Source: Paucibacter sp. Y2R2-4 (GTDB taxonomy: Bacteria; Pseudomonadota; Gammaproteobacteria; Burkholderiales; Burkholderiaceae_C). From it: a stretch of DNA of 64,000 nt. Below the pieces are notes generated by a model, which saw only the letters and a program-made list of their open reading frames with translations, made no database searches and had not been told where the DNA came from. Below are positions 48,912 through 53,877 of the stretch, in pieces (the first letter of the stretch is position 1; each line of letters opens with the position of its first letter). The stretch covers positions 620,001 to 684,000 of the forward strand of contig NZ_JAJIRO010000002.1 in assembly GCF_025717535.1 (NCBI RefSeq), read 5' to 3'. Both the position numbers and the translations under genes were made by a program.

Positions 48912-49592
48912 ATGTCGCCCATGAGTTCCCGCCCCCAGTCCCCCCAAGAATCCCTCACCCCCAAGGCCCGCATTGTTTTGTACTGGATGGACCTGGCCGG
49001 CGTGGCCGTGTTCGCCATCAGCGGCGCCTTGGCGGCCATGCAAGCCCGGCTCGATCTGTTTGGCGTCTTGGTTTTGGCCGCCATCACCGCCATCGGCGGC
49101 GGCACGCTGCGCGACCTGCTCTTGGGCCGCCACCCGATTTTCTGGATGCGCGACACCCGCTATATCAAGGTCATTGGCCTGACCGCCTTGTTCACCGCCT
49201 TGCTTGCGAATAGCTGGGGCCATTTGCTGGCCACTGGCAATGGCGCTTTGGTGATTGCCGATACCTTGGGCTTGGCCTTGTTTGCCCTGTGCGGCGCCGA
49301 GATTGCCGAAGAGGCCGGCAAGTCGCGTTTGGTCGTGGTGCTGCTGGGCACCATCACCGCCAGCGGCGGCGGCGTGATGCGCGACCTTTTGACCAGCCAA
49401 GTGCCCCTGCTGCTGCGGCGCGATATTTACGCCAGCGCCGCGATCGGCGGCATTGCCGGCTATCTGGCGCTGCGGGCCCTGGGCCTGCCGCGCCAAGCCG
49501 CCTTTATCGCCGGCATGTTGATGGTGGTGGCGCTACGTCTGGCGGCACTGCGCTACGGCTGGCAACTGCCGGCGCCGCAGCTGAGCTCTTAG
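48912..49592 (+). CDS. Trimeric intracellular cation channel (TRIC/YicG family) membrane protein
   Basis: A 226-residue protein with about seven transmembrane helices in two homologous halves, each with a Gly-rich signature: ISGALAAMQARLDLFGVLVLAAITAIGGGTLRDLLLG and CGAEIAEEAGKSRLVVVLLGTITASGGGVMRDLL. These repeats (UPF0126) form prokaryotic TRIC channels that conduct monovalent cations. Start at 48912 or nine bases further; the open frame also extends upstream to 48840 over the divergent htpG promoter and is not expected to be used. Confidence 0.88.
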   Translation: MSPMSSRPQSPQESLTPKARIVLYWMDLAGVAVFAISGALAAMQARLDLFGVLVLAAITAIGGGTLRDLLLGRHPIFWMRDTRYIKVIGLTALFTALLANSWGHLLATGNGALVIADTLGLALFALCGAEIAEEAGKSRLVVVLLGTITASGGGVMRDLLTSQVPLLLRRDIYASAAIGGIAGYLALRALGLPRQAAFIAGMLMVVALRLAALRYGWQLPAPQLSS

Positions 49593-49602
49593 GAACCCGA
49601 GC

Positions 49603-49914
49603 TCAGTAGCTCAGCGTGCGCTTGGCCACATCCACCCGCAGCAAGGCTTTGCTGAGCGCCCCGCTGGTGGCGCGCGCATAGTCCAAAGCCCAGGCCGGGT
49701 CTGAAAAAGCCACCGGCCCGGCCGCAGCCGCCACCCCCAAGATCTTGTCGGCCAACAAGACCTTGCCCGAGCCGCGCATCGGCTCGCACTCGTACTTGAC
49801 GTACTGCTCATCCAGCCATAGCCGTGAGGCCTCGAAGCTCAAAACCTCGCCGGCGTCCACCACCAGATCGAACTGTTGCACCGGACTGAACACGACCTTC
49901 ACTTCACTGCGCAT
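49603..49914 (-). CDS. Conserved hypothetical small protein
   Basis: A 103-residue protein I do not recognise. It has no signal peptide or membrane segment. It is mixed alpha/beta with the distinctive stretch SRLWLDEQYVKYECEPMRGSGKVLLADKILG and an Ala-rich centre (GVAAAAGPVAFSDPAWAL). Codon use is like its neighbours. It lies downstream of aroG on the same strand, beyond tandem repeats, and ends ten bases from the convergent TRIC gene. Probably a real gene by base composition and by ATG position; function unknown. Confidence 0.55.
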   Translation of the reverse strand: MRSEVKVVFSPVQQFDLVVDAGEVLSFEASRLWLDEQYVKYECEPMRGSGKVLLADKILGVAAAAGPVAFSDPAWALDYARATSGALSKALLRVDVAKRTLSY

Positions 49915-49959
49915 CGCGGGCCTTTCGTGAATGAGAGCGGCTCGATTCTGGCGCAGAAC

Positions 49960-50082
49960 TCAAGCGAGCGCAGCTTTGATGGCAGCCTTCCTCAGGAGCG
50001 CGCCGCCTTGACGGCAGCCTTCCTCAGGAGCGCGCCGCCTTGACGGCAGCCTTCCTCAGGAGCGCGCCGCCTTGACGGCAGC
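49960..50082. repeat. 32-bp tandem repeats derived from the 3' end of aroG
   Basis: Three near-identical 32-bp units (from 49978, 50010 and 50042) plus a partial one to 50082 and a degenerate one from 49960. Each unit contains the last codons of aroG and its TGA stop; the stop triplets are at 50056, 50024, 49992 and 49960, exactly 32 bases apart. The true aroG stop is in the unit starting at 50042. There are no spacers, so it is not a CRISPR. Confidence 0.9.
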
Positions 50083-51183
50083 GCTGAGCACCTCCAAAGC
50101 CTCGAGCGAATCATCCCAGCCCAAGCAAGCATCGGTGATGCTCTTGCCGTACTCCAGCTTGCTCGCGTCGTCCTTGCCCGGGGTGAACTTTTGTGCGCCG
50201 TCGTGCAAATGGCTTTCCACCATCACGCCAAAAATGTTCTTGCCGCCGGCCACGATTTGCGCGCCCACATCGCGCGCCACTTCCAGCTGGCGCAGATGCT
50301 GCTTGGAGCTGTTGGCATGCGAGCAGTCCACCATCAGCGTGGTGTCGAGCTTGGCAGCGGCCAAGTCCTTGCAAGCTGCGGCCACGCTTTCGGCGTCGTA
50401 ATTGGGCGCTTTGCCGCCGCGCAGGATGACGTGGCAGTCCTTATTGCCCTTGGTCTCAACAATGGCGACTTGACCATTCTTGTGCACGGACAAGAAATGG
50501 TGGCCGCGAGCCGCTGCTTGAATGGCATCGGTGGCGATCTTGATATTGCCATCGGTGCCGTTCTTGAAGCCGATCGGTGCCGACAGGCCCGACGCCAGTT
50601 CGCGGTGCACCTGGCTCTCGGTGGTGCGTGCACCGATAGCGCCCCAGGAAATCAGGTCGCCGATGTACTGCGGCGAGATCACATCCAAGAACTCCGAACC
50701 CGCCGGCATGCCCAGCCGATTGATCTCCAACAGCAGCTGACGCGCGATACGCAGGCCCTCGTCGATGCGGTAGCTTTCGTCCAGATAGGGGTCATTGATC
50801 AAACCCTTCCAGCCGACCGTGGTGCGCGGCTTTTCGAAGTAGACCCGCATGACGATCTCCAGCGTGTCGGCGTACTTCTCTCGCTGCACCATCAATCGGC
50901 GTGCGTATTCCAGCGCCGCTGAGGGGTCATGGATAGAGCAAGGGCCAATGATCACCAGCAGGCGATCATCCTTGCGCTGCATGATTTTGCGAATGCTGTG
51001 GCGCGTGCTGGCGATCAGCTGCTCCATCGGCGTGCCACGGATCGGGAAGAAACGAATCAGGTGCTCTGGTGGCGGCAGCGGTGTGATGTCGACGATGCGT
51101 TCGTCATCGGTCGCACTGGTCTTGTCCTCTTGCGAGTACCAGCGTTCGGCCTGAATCTCCGGTTTGGCGGACTTGGCATTCAT
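50056..51183 (-). CDS. aroG: 3-deoxy-7-phosphoheptulonate (DAHP) synthase, class I
   Basis: Condenses phosphoenolpyruvate and erythrose-4-phosphate, first step of aromatic amino acid synthesis. The 375-residue product has the family motifs DRLLVIIGPCSIHDPSAALEYA, MRVYFEKPRTTVGWKGLINDP, AGSEFLDVISPQYIGDLISWGAIGARTTESQ, GFKNGTDGNIKIA and VDCSHANSSK with metal-binding Cys/His/Glu/Asp. Which aromatic amino acid inhibits it cannot be read with certainty, but the Phe-rich leader upstream (51314-51391) suggests a phenylalanine-controlled enzyme. The C-terminal codons and stop lie inside a 32-bp tandem repeat. Confidence 0.96.
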   Translation of the reverse strand: MNAKSAKPEIQAERWYSQEDKTSATDDERIVDITPLPPPEHLIRFFPIRGTPMEQLIASTRHSIRKIMQRKDDRLLVIIGPCSIHDPSAALEYARRLMVQREKYADTLEIVMRVYFEKPRTTVGWKGLINDPYLDESYRIDEGLRIARQLLLEINRLGMPAGSEFLDVISPQYIGDLISWGAIGARTTESQVHRELASGLSAPIGFKNGTDGNIKIATDAIQAAARGHHFLSVHKNGQVAIVETKGNKDCHVILRGGKAPNYDAESVAAACKDLAAAKLDTTLMVDCSHANSSKQHLRQLEVARDVGAQIVAGGKNIFGVMVESHLHDGAQKFTPGKDDASKLEYGKSITDACLGWDDSLEALEVLSAAVKAARS

Positions 51184-51242
51184 GGGCTAACTCTCACTTT
51201 CCGTGGTCTGGATTCGGTTTCAGATGAAGCAGCGCTCAGACG

Positions 51243-51276
51243 AAAAAAAACCGCCGGGTGGTGGACCCGGCGGTTT
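51243..51276 (-). terminator. Attenuator terminator in the aroG leader
   Basis: In the minus-strand RNA, AACCGCCGGGT pairs perfectly with ACCCGGCGGTT across loop CCACC and runs into eight T. It lies between the Phe-rich leader peptide and aroG, 59 bases before the aroG start, so it must be bypassed for aroG to be expressed. An upstream segment (51333-51340, ACCGGCGG inside the leader codons) can pair with its 5' arm as an antiterminator. Confidence 0.85.
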
Positions 51277-51313
51277 CTAGAGATTTGTGCGCTTTGCTTG
51301 ATGCTTATCCTGC

Positions 51314-51391
51314 TTACGCTCTCGCCTCTCGGCCGCCGGTGCGGTTAGAGAACCAAAAAAAGCTAAAGAAATAAGTCTTTGGCGAGTGCAT
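51314..51391 (-). CDS. Phenylalanine-rich leader peptide of aroG (attenuator)
   Basis: A 25-codon open frame with ATG at 51391 and TAA at 51316-51314. Codons 7-14 encode Tyr-Phe-Phe-Ser-Phe-Phe-Trp-Phe: five Phe plus Tyr and Trp in eight residues, the pattern of regulatory leaders such as E. coli PheL. After the Phe codons come TGGREARA and the stop. The antiterminator strand (51333-51340) lies at codons 18-20, where a ribosome stalled at Phe8-Phe12 leaves it free and a ribosome at the stop covers it. Short CTCGCC (51381-51386) and GGCGAG (51321-51326) can also pair. The Shine-Dalgarno is weak. I could not find a clear promoter in the 74 bases after tldD. Confidence 0.8.
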   Translation of the reverse strand: MHSPKTYFFSFFWFSNRTGGREARA

Positions 51392-51465
51392 GGCTTTGAA
51401 TGTAGCACGCGATTCTTGCAAGCCGCCGCCGGGCTGCGGCCTTGCAACAACAGTCATGGCTGCGA

Positions 51466-52938
51466 TCAGGCAGTGCCGCCGACAGTCAAACCGTCGATGC
51501 GCAAGGTCGGCTGACCCACGCCCACCGGCACGCTCTGGCCCTCTTTGCCGCAGACGCCAACACCCGTATCCAGCTGCATATCGTTGCCAATCATGCTGAC
51601 GCGAGTGAGGGCTTCCGGGCCGCTGCCAATGATGGTGGCACCCTTGACCGGATACTGGATCTTGCCGTTCTCGACCCAGAAGGCTTCGCTGGCCGAGAAG
51701 ACAAACTTGCCGGATGTGATATCCACTTGGCCGCCGCCGAAGTTGGTGGCGTAGATGCCGCGCTTGATGCTGGCGACGATCTCTTGCGGGTCTTTGTCGC
51801 CGCCCAACATATAGGTGTTGGTCATGCGCGGCATCGGCGTGTGGGCATAGCTTTCGCGGCGACCGTTGCCGGTCGGGGGCACCTTCATCAGACGCGCATT
51901 CATCGCGTCTTGGATATAGCCCTTCAAGATGCCGTCCTCGATCAGCACATTGCGCTGCGAGGCACAACCCTCGTCGTCGACGTTGAGCGAACCACGGCGA
52001 TCCGGCAGCGTGCCGTCGTCCAGGACCGTGACGCCCTTGGCCGCCACCCGCTGGCCAATGCGGCCGGCAAACGCGCTCGAGCCCTTGCGGTTGAAGTCGC
52101 CTTCCAGGCCGTGGCCGATCGCTTCATGCAAGAGCACCCCAGGCCAGCCAGGGCCGAGCACGACCGTCATTTCGCCAGCCGGCACCGGGCGCGACTCCAG
52201 ATTCGTCAAGGCCGCAGTGACCGCTTGGTCAACATAGCTGGCAATCATTTCATCGGTGAAATAGGCCAGTCCGAAACGGCCACCGCCGCCACCGCTGCCA
52301 ACCTCGCGGCGGCCATTGCTCTCCGCAATCACCGTCACGCTCAGGCGCACCAGCGGGCGCACATCGGCAGCTAAGGTGCCATCGGCACGGGCCACCAAGA
52401 CCACATCATGTTCGGCGGCCAAGCCGGCCATCACCTGAGCCACGCGCGGGTCTTTGGCGCGAGCCATGCGCTCGGCGCGCTCCAGCAGGGCCACCTTCTC
52501 GGTGCTGTCCAAGCTTGCAATAGGGTCGGCGGCGCCATACAGCGAGCGACTGGCCGAGACCGTCGGCTGGCTGGGCACCTTGACGCGGCGGCTTTGCCCG
52601 GCGGCTGCAATCGCGCGCACCGTCAAAGCAGCATCGATGATGGCCGCCTCAGAGATATCGTCAGAGTAGGCGAAGGCCGTTTTCTCGCCCGCCACCGCGC
52701 GCACACCCACGCCCTGGTCGATGCTGAAACTGCCGCTCTTGACGATGCCTTCTTCCAGACTCCAGCCCTCGGCGCGCGTGGTCTGGAAGTACAGATCAGC
52801 GTCATCGACCCGGTGTTCGGTGATCAGTCGCAAGGCTTTGGTCAAGACCGCCTCGCTGAGGCCGTAAGGCTCCAGCAATTGGCTGCGGGCCGCCGCCAGG
52901 CGGGCAAGAGTGGGTTCGCGAGAAATCATGCGAGCCAT
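51466..52938 (-). CDS. tldD: Metalloprotease TldD
   Basis: Subunit of the TldD/TldE protease, which degrades or processes peptides such as microcin B17 and CcdA in E. coli. The 490-residue product has the zinc motif HEAIGHGLEGD (HExxxH), the preceding VLGPGWPGVLL, and C-terminal glycine-rich beta segments (VDITSGKFVFSASEAFWVENGKI, VGVCGKEGQSVPVGVGQPTLRI). Start ATG at 52938 or the one nine bases on. The partner gene tldE (pmbA) is not in the window. It stands upstream of the aroG leader on the same strand, so read-through into the attenuator is possible. Confidence 0.95.
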   Translation of the reverse strand: MARMISREPTLARLAAARSQLLEPYGLSEAVLTKALRLITEHRVDDADLYFQTTRAEGWSLEEGIVKSGSFSIDQGVGVRAVAGEKTAFAYSDDISEAAIIDAALTVRAIAAAGQSRRVKVPSQPTVSASRSLYGAADPIASLDSTEKVALLERAERMARAKDPRVAQVMAGLAAEHDVVLVARADGTLAADVRPLVRLSVTVIAESNGRREVGSGGGGGRFGLAYFTDEMIASYVDQAVTAALTNLESRPVPAGEMTVVLGPGWPGVLLHEAIGHGLEGDFNRKGSSAFAGRIGQRVAAKGVTVLDDGTLPDRRGSLNVDDEGCASQRNVLIEDGILKGYIQDAMNARLMKVPPTGNGRRESYAHTPMPRMTNTYMLGGDKDPQEIVASIKRGIYATNFGGGQVDITSGKFVFSASEAFWVENGKIQYPVKGATIIGSGPEALTRVSMIGNDMQLDTGVGVCGKEGQSVPVGVGQPTLRIDGLTVGGTA

Positions 52939-52998
52939 TGTAGGAGCGGTGGCGCCTCAGCGCCGTCTGCCGCTGAGTCCCCTTGTGCCCGGCAGGGC

Positions 52999-53877
52999 TC
53001 AAGCGGAGAAAGCCACCGCCAGCGCGTCAAACACCAAGCGCAAGCGCGGCGTGTCGCGCAACTCCCGGTGCGCGGTCAGCCACATGGGCAGGGCCGGAAT
53101 TTGGATTTCCGGCAGGACCTGCACCAAGTCTGGCTCGCGAGCCGCCAGCGCCAGCGCCCCCACGGCCAGCCCCATGCCGGCGCGCATGGCCTCCCACACC
53201 ACCACCTGGTTGTCGCAGCGAAAGCCAAAGAAATCCGGCTGGACCACAAAGCCTGCCGCCGCAAAGCCGCGCAACATCTGCTCATTGCGGTCATAGCCCA
53301 ACCACTGATGGCTGAGCACGGTCGCCATGGTCGGCATGCCTTGACGCGCCACATAGTCTCGATGCGCAAACACCCCCACCGGCCACTCACCCAATTTGCG
53401 TGCCACCAAGGTGGCTTGCTCGGGCCTCACCATGCGCAGCGCGATATCGGCGCTGCGCTCGAGCAGGTTTTCCACCTCGTTGCTGGCCACCAGCTCGATC
53501 TGGATTTCTGGGTACCGGCGGCGCAAGTCGCTCAGCACCGGGGGCAGGAAGTAAGCGCAGACGATTTCGCTGGCCGTCAAGCGCACCGTGCCGGCCAAAG
53601 ACTGATCCTGGGCGGAAAGAGCCAACGCTAACTCTTGCGCGCCCTCCCGCATGCGCTGGGCCGCTGGCAGCAAGGCCTGGCCGGCAGGAGTCAAGCTCAA
53701 GCCCCTGGCGTGGCGCTCAAACAAGCTCTGACCCAAGGCCGCTTCCAGCGCGGCCAATTGCCGGCTCAAGGTCGGCTGGCTTTGGCCCAAAACAGGCGCG
53801 GCGCGATTCAAAGAGCCGGTTTCGGCCAGCACCAAAAAGGTTTGCAACAAAGACCAGTCAAGTGAATTCGCGCGCAT
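52999..53877 (-). CDS. LysR-family transcriptional regulator
   Basis: A 292-residue regulator with the N-terminal winged helix-turn-helix (residues 8-66, FLVLAETGSLNRAAPVLGQSQPTLSRQLAALEAALG) and a C-terminal LysR effector domain (about 90-290, LAGTVRLTASEIVCAYFLPPVLSDLRRRYPEIQIEL). It is divergent from a reductase/epimerase gene with a perfect palindrome two bases before its own start (53880-53899), so it probably represses itself and controls the neighbour. Effector unknown. Confidence 0.92.
   Translation of the reverse strand: MRANSLDWSLLQTFLVLAETGSLNRAAPVLGQSQPTLSRQLAALEAALGQSLFERHARGLSLTPAGQALLPAAQRMREGAQELALALSAQDQSLAGTVRLTASEIVCAYFLPPVLSDLRRRYPEIQIELVASNEVENLLERSADIALRMVRPEQATLVARKLGEWPVGVFAHRDYVARQGMPTMATVLSHQWLGYDRNEQMLRGFAAAGFVVQPDFFGFRCDNQVVVWEAMRAGMGLAVGALALAAREPDLVQVLPEIQIPALPMWLTAHRELRDTPRLRLVFDALAVAFSA

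Follow-up and report, generated by a model that had tools for sequence, protein, structure and literature searches.

DAHP synthase catalyzes the first step of aromatic amino acid synthesis, and DAHP leads to Phe, Tyr, and Trp alike. In Escherichia coli, aroG is under the control of TyrR; to our knowledge, how DAHP synthase is adjusted at the transcript level in bacteria without TyrR is not settled. Among leader-controlled genes of the pathway, the pheL-pheA attenuator of enterobacteria, represented in Rfam by the Phe_leader family, has a Phe-rich leader ORF and alternative antiterminator and terminator structures controlled by ribosome position, and in E. coli the run in pheL consists of Phe codons only. 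For the trpL-trpE(G) attenuator of Sinorhizobium meliloti, the relevant section of PMC7298713 describes a leader ATG that coincides with the RNA 5′ end, a short terminated transcript (rnTrpL), and a peptide (peTrpL); as described there, this system provides a precedent for attenuation by a leaderless ORF. At the protein level, the TyrR repressor governs aromatic synthesis genes in gammaproteobacteria, and both TyrR and TrpR were reported to be absent from the other proteobacterial classes (relevant section of PMC5343134).

The window, a stretch of 64,000 nucleotides from Paucibacter sp. Y2R2-4, carries a leader and terminator unit on the minus strand between tldD (51466-52938) and aroG (50056-51183). 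The product of aroG, the putative regulated gene, is a DAHP synthase of 375 amino acids that scored 525 bits against TIGR00034 (aroFGH; cut-off, 173; E value, 5.9e-158) and 536 bits against the narrower AroG model NF006723, which is below the cut-off of 568 for that model. On the 3′ side of aroG, a 103-amino-acid ORF (49603-49914, minus strand) had no NCBIfam or Pfam match at an E value of ≤0.001.

All parts of the unit are likewise on the minus strand. The leader ORF, MHSPKTYFFSFFWFSNRTGGREARA (51314-51391; ATG at 51391, TAA at 51316-51314), has 25 codons followed by a stop and is predicted to be leaderless. As a first-pass annotation of this DNA had stated, codons 7 to 14 (51350-51373) read TAT TTC TTT AGC TTT TTT TGG TTC (YFFSFFWF), and these are the proposed control codons. 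The terminator stem noted there as perfect over 11 bases was also present: the 5′ arm AACCGCCGGGT (region 3; 51275-51265) and the 3′ arm ACCCGGCGGTT (region 4; 51259-51249) form 11 pairs, followed by a T8 tract (51250-51243) of which the first two T lie within the stem. The annotation had further described ACCGGCGG (51340-51333) as complementary to the 5′ arm. Complementarity was found between CCGGCGG (region 2; 51339-51333), the 5′ segment of the predicted antiterminator, and CCGCCGG (51273-51267), giving a helix of 7 rather than 8 bp. Two elements had been overlooked, namely, a second antiterminator segment, AGAGG (51325-51329), predicted by folding to pair with TCTCT (51279-51283), and an extended −10 promoter element, TGCTACATT (51399-51407), close to the leader ATG.

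Compared with pheL-pheA, the target here is aroG rather than pheA, Tyr and Trp codons are mixed with those for Phe, the leader is probably leaderless, and inspection of the sequences of relatives by eye revealed no conserved 1:2 protector hairpin within the leader ORF. A search of positions 49500 to 53000 against Rfam at an E value of ≤5 returned no Phe_leader match, and the sole hit was to the unrelated RF02609 (14.8 bits against a gathering score of 191). The likeness to S. meliloti trpL-trpE(G) is one of layout, a leaderless attenuator ORF (predicted here) and a short terminated transcript, whereas the amino acid, gene, and lineage differ. Judged from its sequence, the aroG leader would work like the pheL and trpL attenuators. 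The main defining features tested were present: a run of end-product codons in a short ORF, an intrinsic terminator between the leader and the structural gene, and, from conservation and folding, an antiterminator having one arm in common with the terminator and beginning just past the control codons. Based on its parts, their conservation, and the folds, the unit would be a ribosome-mediated transcription attenuator of aroG, with a predicted regulatory response, and we place the probability of this reading at roughly 0.87.

An aromatic-rich ORF preceded aroG in 62 of the best 80 aroG relatives (the named loci) from a collection of 84,980 species genomes. Leader starts in these 62 loci were chosen by eye, and detection used aromatic-content rules, so that less aromatic-rich leaders could escape. 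Of the 18 named loci without a clear leader, L024 lacks upstream sequence, L025 is divergent, and 16 show none; leader-free loci included those of Polynucleobacter, Thauera, Azoarcus, Rhodocyclus, and Methylotenera and the Cupriavidus copies L034 and L037. A covariance model built from 55 sequences and run on 399 Burkholderiales genomes matched 107 of them at an E value of ≤1.2e-7, in 14 families (anonymous labels), and every one of these 107 strong hits was located directly 5′ of aroG, while three weaker hits (L195 to L197) were not. At an E value of ≤0.01 there were matches in 253 genomes, and the weak ones, mostly short and terminator-like, were not counted as members. With a broader model, 110 genomes were recovered at an E value of ≤1e-6, comprising the same 107 and three of one genus in which the match lay before another gene. 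Run on 370 genomes of the class, this model gave seven hits; four were outside the order (families f60 and f65), and all four preceded aroG. The negative control consisted of 34 genomes that gave no strong hit; a search for AroG was positive in 24 of them, and none of the 30 loci compared had a leader together with a matching terminator.

A tree of 91 AroG proteins required 12 changes of the leader label, five of them forced by well-supported branches, compared with 29.6 in shuffles; as its bootstrap is unsettled and long branches were flagged, no claim of a single origin is drawn from it. The statistics below refer to 161 loci, made up of 61 named loci (window included) and 100 survey loci. 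Left out were L083, a copy of the window, and L176, L188, and L193, which had been assigned a wrong start codon; L004, which has a terminator without GGCGG, was excluded from GGCGG-dependent counts, and L071 is off the automatic terminator list although its terminator is visible. Among the 60 matches listed in a search for AroG on plasmids, there was no Ralstonia copy. In the Paucibacter genome itself, a single strong full-length copy of the unit scored 95.4 bits, and the second-best full-length span reached 17.1 bits (E value, 0.2). A second DAHP synthase encoded in this genome (L002:1501 onward; C5:468550-469611) is 58% identical to AroG and had no comparable leader within 420 bases upstream.

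The extended −10 element in the window lies 7 nt 5′ of the leader ATG without a −35 match, and the predicted transcription start (51392 or 51391) falls at this ATG. No σ70-like promoter was identified by a consensus scan of positions 50000 to 52600, an extended −10 without a −35 being beyond the reach of such a scan. In 77 of the 161 loci, the sequence TGNTANNNT was found 6 to 8 nt upstream of the leader ATG, and elsewhere in the 100 nt upstream it occurred 14 times; the looser pattern TANNNT was present 5 to 9 nt before the ATG in 92 of 161 loci compared with 43 of 966 control offsets. A −10 box 6 to 8 nt before the ATG would start transcription at the ATG itself, making the mRNA probably leaderless. 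A Shine-Dalgarno-like 4-mer was located upstream of only 8 of 161 leaders compared with 70 of 93 aroG genes, a comparison that allowed several aroG start codons and therefore favors aroG. The close −10 box was absent from all 38 loci in six of the 14 families (f3, f7, f10, f19, f29, and f31). By eye, the f7 and f31 leaders, which are similar to the leaders of Oxalobacteraceae and Burkholderia, appear to begin farther upstream, again with no Shine-Dalgarno sequence. In the window and the other loci with a close −10 box, the leader mRNA is thus probably leaderless.

The aromatic content of the leader was compared with that of 3,290 ATG-started frames of 15 to 35 codons in 464 kb of the same genome, covering both strands of the window and 20 other stretches and thus part of the genome. 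A single frame, the present leader, had at least six aromatic residues in a 9-residue window, and seven frames had at least five. The aromatic leader is real and far above chance expectation. Across the 161 loci, Phe, Tyr, and Trp made up 72.7% of the in-frame residues of the run, whereas the two remaining frames gave 24.4% and 19.7%; the 9-codon stretch had been picked at the in-frame maximum, which biases the comparison toward frame 0. In 61 loci, aromatic codons occupied 51 to 98% per position at 13 to 36 nt before GGCGG, 33% at 10 to 12 nt, and 0 to 2% closer to it. With the footprint of the ribosome and its reach beyond the A site as the yardstick, this border fits the distance at which a stalled ribosome would leave the segment free.

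The sequence GG[CT]GG was found 3′ of the last aromatic codon in 156 of the 161 loci (61 of 62 in the named-locus count). Its reading frame varied, with 101, 46, and 9 loci in the three frames, so that it encoded, for example, the residues TGG or PGG when read as GGC GGN and LAD or TAA when read as G GCG G. These counts indicate that the aromatic run is conserved as amino acids and the GGYGG segment that follows it as RNA, the pattern required by attenuation. The terminator 5′ arm is common to both predicted structures. When the 3′ arm was omitted, region 2 was predicted to pair with the 5′ arm in all 153 loci folded (the 161 minus eight without a recognized motif), and when folding was restricted to the RNA left exposed by a ribosome on the stop codon, the terminator formed in all 153. 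With both structures allowed, the terminator state was more stable by a median of 3.4 kcal/mol, as a kinetic switch needs, and the antiterminator was favored in 20 of the 153 loci. In the window, the folded antiterminator was bipartite, AGAGG and TCTCT forming the second helix, and GAGAG was visible in many relatives.

The CCGCC core of the terminator was almost invariant (alignment A2). Changes on both sides were seen in 4 of 10 terminator pairs (52 such cells) and 2 of 7 antiterminator pairs (25 such cells), and for neither helix did any of 500 shuffles have as many double-sided cells; the shuffles take no account of relatedness, and there is little variation in the GGCGG:CCGCC core. The number of double-sided pairs was equaled or exceeded in 26 (terminator) and 430 (antiterminator) of 500 shuffles and the number of further pair types in 443 and 452, respectively; these two measures are the least inflated by relatedness, and they are unexceptional. 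At the variable antiterminator pair (columns 77/167), a standard pair was present in 58 of 82 sequences, and the three strands, which covaried in the majority of sequences, read C:G:C in 29, T:A:T in 21, and a mismatch or wobble in at least one of the pairings in 32, of 82; a separate count of this position adds one A:T:A. Overall, the relatives keep the aromatic codons and the alternative pairing, as the first-pass annotation would lead one to expect, and compensatory changes give moderate support for both helices.

As an attenuator, the unit would be transcribed from the leader ATG or from a position no more than about 1 nt away, and its ORF would be translated as leaderless mRNA. When charged tRNA-Phe, tRNA-Tyr, or tRNA-Trp is scarce, the ribosome would stall within codons 7 to 14, leaving CCGGCGG and AGAGG free to pair with CCGCCGG and TCTCT; the antiterminator would then occupy the terminator 5′ arm, and RNA polymerase would continue into aroG. 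When aromatic amino acids are plentiful, the ribosome would pass codons 7 to 14 and reach the stop, leaving no time for the antiterminator to form, and the 11-bp terminator with its T8 tract would end transcription. The leaderless start, the stalling, the dominant tRNA, and the regulatory response are what we infer from these parts. Lacking an evident protector hairpin, the leader would by default adopt the antiterminator, and termination would depend on a ribosome crossing region 2 at the right time. It had been proposed that the complementary segment within the leader lies under a ribosome that has reached the stop codon. The distance from GGYGG to the stop had a median of 21 nt, so a ribosome at the stop would shield the AGAGG helix rather than GGCGG, which, by the usual footprint, would be covered at its edge at most. 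The attenuation reading of the annotation as a whole gained support from the conserved codons, the alternative pairing, and the position of the strong hits before aroG (107/107).

The hairpin could instead be the ordinary terminator of tldD, with a constitutive aroG promoter and an aromatic ORF that is incidental. While tldD does lie upstream in the window and in the flank of 49 of the 62 named leader loci, it was not found within the flank (up to 2.5 kb) in 13; these 13 loci carry the leader nonetheless, so that the unit belongs with aroG. The consensus scan described above offered no σ70-like promoter for such an arrangement, and fixed spacing is seen for the ORF and GGCGG and, in many loci, for the −10 box as well. 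Together with the absence of the leader-terminator combination from all 30 aroG-family loci in genomes without a strong hit, these observations make a tldD terminator extremely improbable. Sequence-specific arrest of the nascent peptide, sensing a free metabolite rather than tRNA charging, would account for the regular aromatic pattern and for the likeness of peptides within families. However, Phe, Tyr, and Trp interchange inside the run, and the codons after it change frame between lineages, which an arrest peptide would hardly tolerate, and we regard this mechanism as very improbable. In addition to attenuation, the terminated leader RNA or its peptide might have a function in trans comparable to that of rnTrpL and peTrpL in S. 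meliloti, where the layout is alike in having a leaderless attenuator ORF and a short terminated RNA (relevant section of PMC7298713). The great variation in leader length and in the 3′ part of the unit speaks against a trans function, which, drawn from analogy, seems improbable.

A narrower alternative within ribosome-mediated attenuation is that the switch obeys tRNA-Phe, the Tyr and Trp codons having arisen by drift. The unit had originally been labeled a Phe leader, which is apt in that Phe accounted for the largest share of the run (689 of 1,244 residues), and a response to Phe alone would agree with the lowering of aroG-lacZ expression by Phe in Ralstonia solanacearum (relevant section of PMC6379268). 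Yet Tyr (278) and Trp (96) were frequent, while the other single-base neighbors of Phe codons were scarce (Leu, 2; Ile, 1; Val, 2; Cys, 6; Ser, 26), the counts coming from related loci and hence not from independent events. Trp codons are two base changes from Phe codons. Among the peptides of the named loci, 60 of 61 contained Tyr and 49 of 61 contained Trp. Because Tyr and Trp are frequent where the other neighbors of Phe codons are scarce, their codons seem to have been selected and kept; the leader is therefore not clearly Phe-only, and a switch that hears Phe alone appears doubtful. The leader probably senses all three aromatic amino acids, and as DAHP feeds all three, a three-way sensor makes sense.

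R. solanacearum belongs to the family Burkholderiaceae. In that species, aroG1- and aroG2-lacZ fusions carrying the promoter region rose 10- to 20-fold on deletion of the other aroG, and 1 mM Phe then cut them 2- to 3-fold, from 702 to 316 and from 1072 to 353 units, an incomplete repression (PMC6379268, Table 2). In the wild type the effect of Phe was small, with aroG1 falling from 47 to 40 and aroG2 from 49 to 41 units, and the relevant section reports Phe-dependent aroG expression without naming a regulator (PMC6379268). On the assumption of a leader in that species, these data fit, by analogy, an attenuator that also hears Tyr and Trp; other regulators fit too. The helix-turn-helix of TyrR (TIGR04381) had no match in the Paucibacter genome, while the E. 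coli control was positive. TyrR control and the aroG leader share the pathway and the kind of signal, but TyrR is a protein repressor acting at the promoter. We lean slightly toward the view that a single leaderless ORF reads the charging of tRNA-Phe, tRNA-Tyr, and tRNA-Trp, that shortage of any one induces aroG, and that this arrangement stands in for TyrR across much of Burkholderiales and in certain other families of gammaproteobacteria.

The first-pass annotation knew of no Phe leader of aroG in Burkholderiales, and a search of the open literature likewise found none described; supplements, attenuator web lists, and subscription papers are possible sources. None was described in the relevant sections of PMC2965389, PMC5760752, PMC4603805, PMC5688073, PMC5343134, PMC7298713, PMC1173090, PMC8632094, and PMC6379268. 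Both Table S3 of PMC5688073, with 82 "short 5′UTRs" of Burkholderia cenocepacia, and the predicted attenuators of the Merino list, to which PMC1173090 refers, may already include the aroG leader. A conserved attenuator would provide a testable account of how a large and ecologically important group adjusts DAHP synthase. It would also be a natural means of sensing three amino acids simultaneously and would give the leaderless attenuator ORF a second lineage and pathway beside S. meliloti trpL.

Three further arrangements were observed among the loci. In Polynucleobacter (L027 to L029) and a betaproteobacterium (L051), the aroG match begins approximately 20 to 25 bases past the apparent end of tldD, and the leader missing from these loci was probably lost. 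In family f27, three genomes of one genus (L198:201 onward, L200:201 onward, and L225) carry a related-looking unit that does not precede aroG. It consists of a leader such as MITFSAVFNAYFYWYRSSRRLQG, a GGCGG segment, and a terminator, 5′ of a gene for a protein of approximately 205 amino acids, for which no Pfam or NCBIfam match was found with the L200 protein; in L225 the unit is on the reverse strand, with the leader at approximately 401 of the reverse complement. Finally, the Comamonadaceae leader MRTTVRYHFWHFHIQHLTGAGVANA (L025:2317 onward) has His codons among fewer aromatic ones and a changed region 2, and it could be read as a decaying or re-tuned copy.
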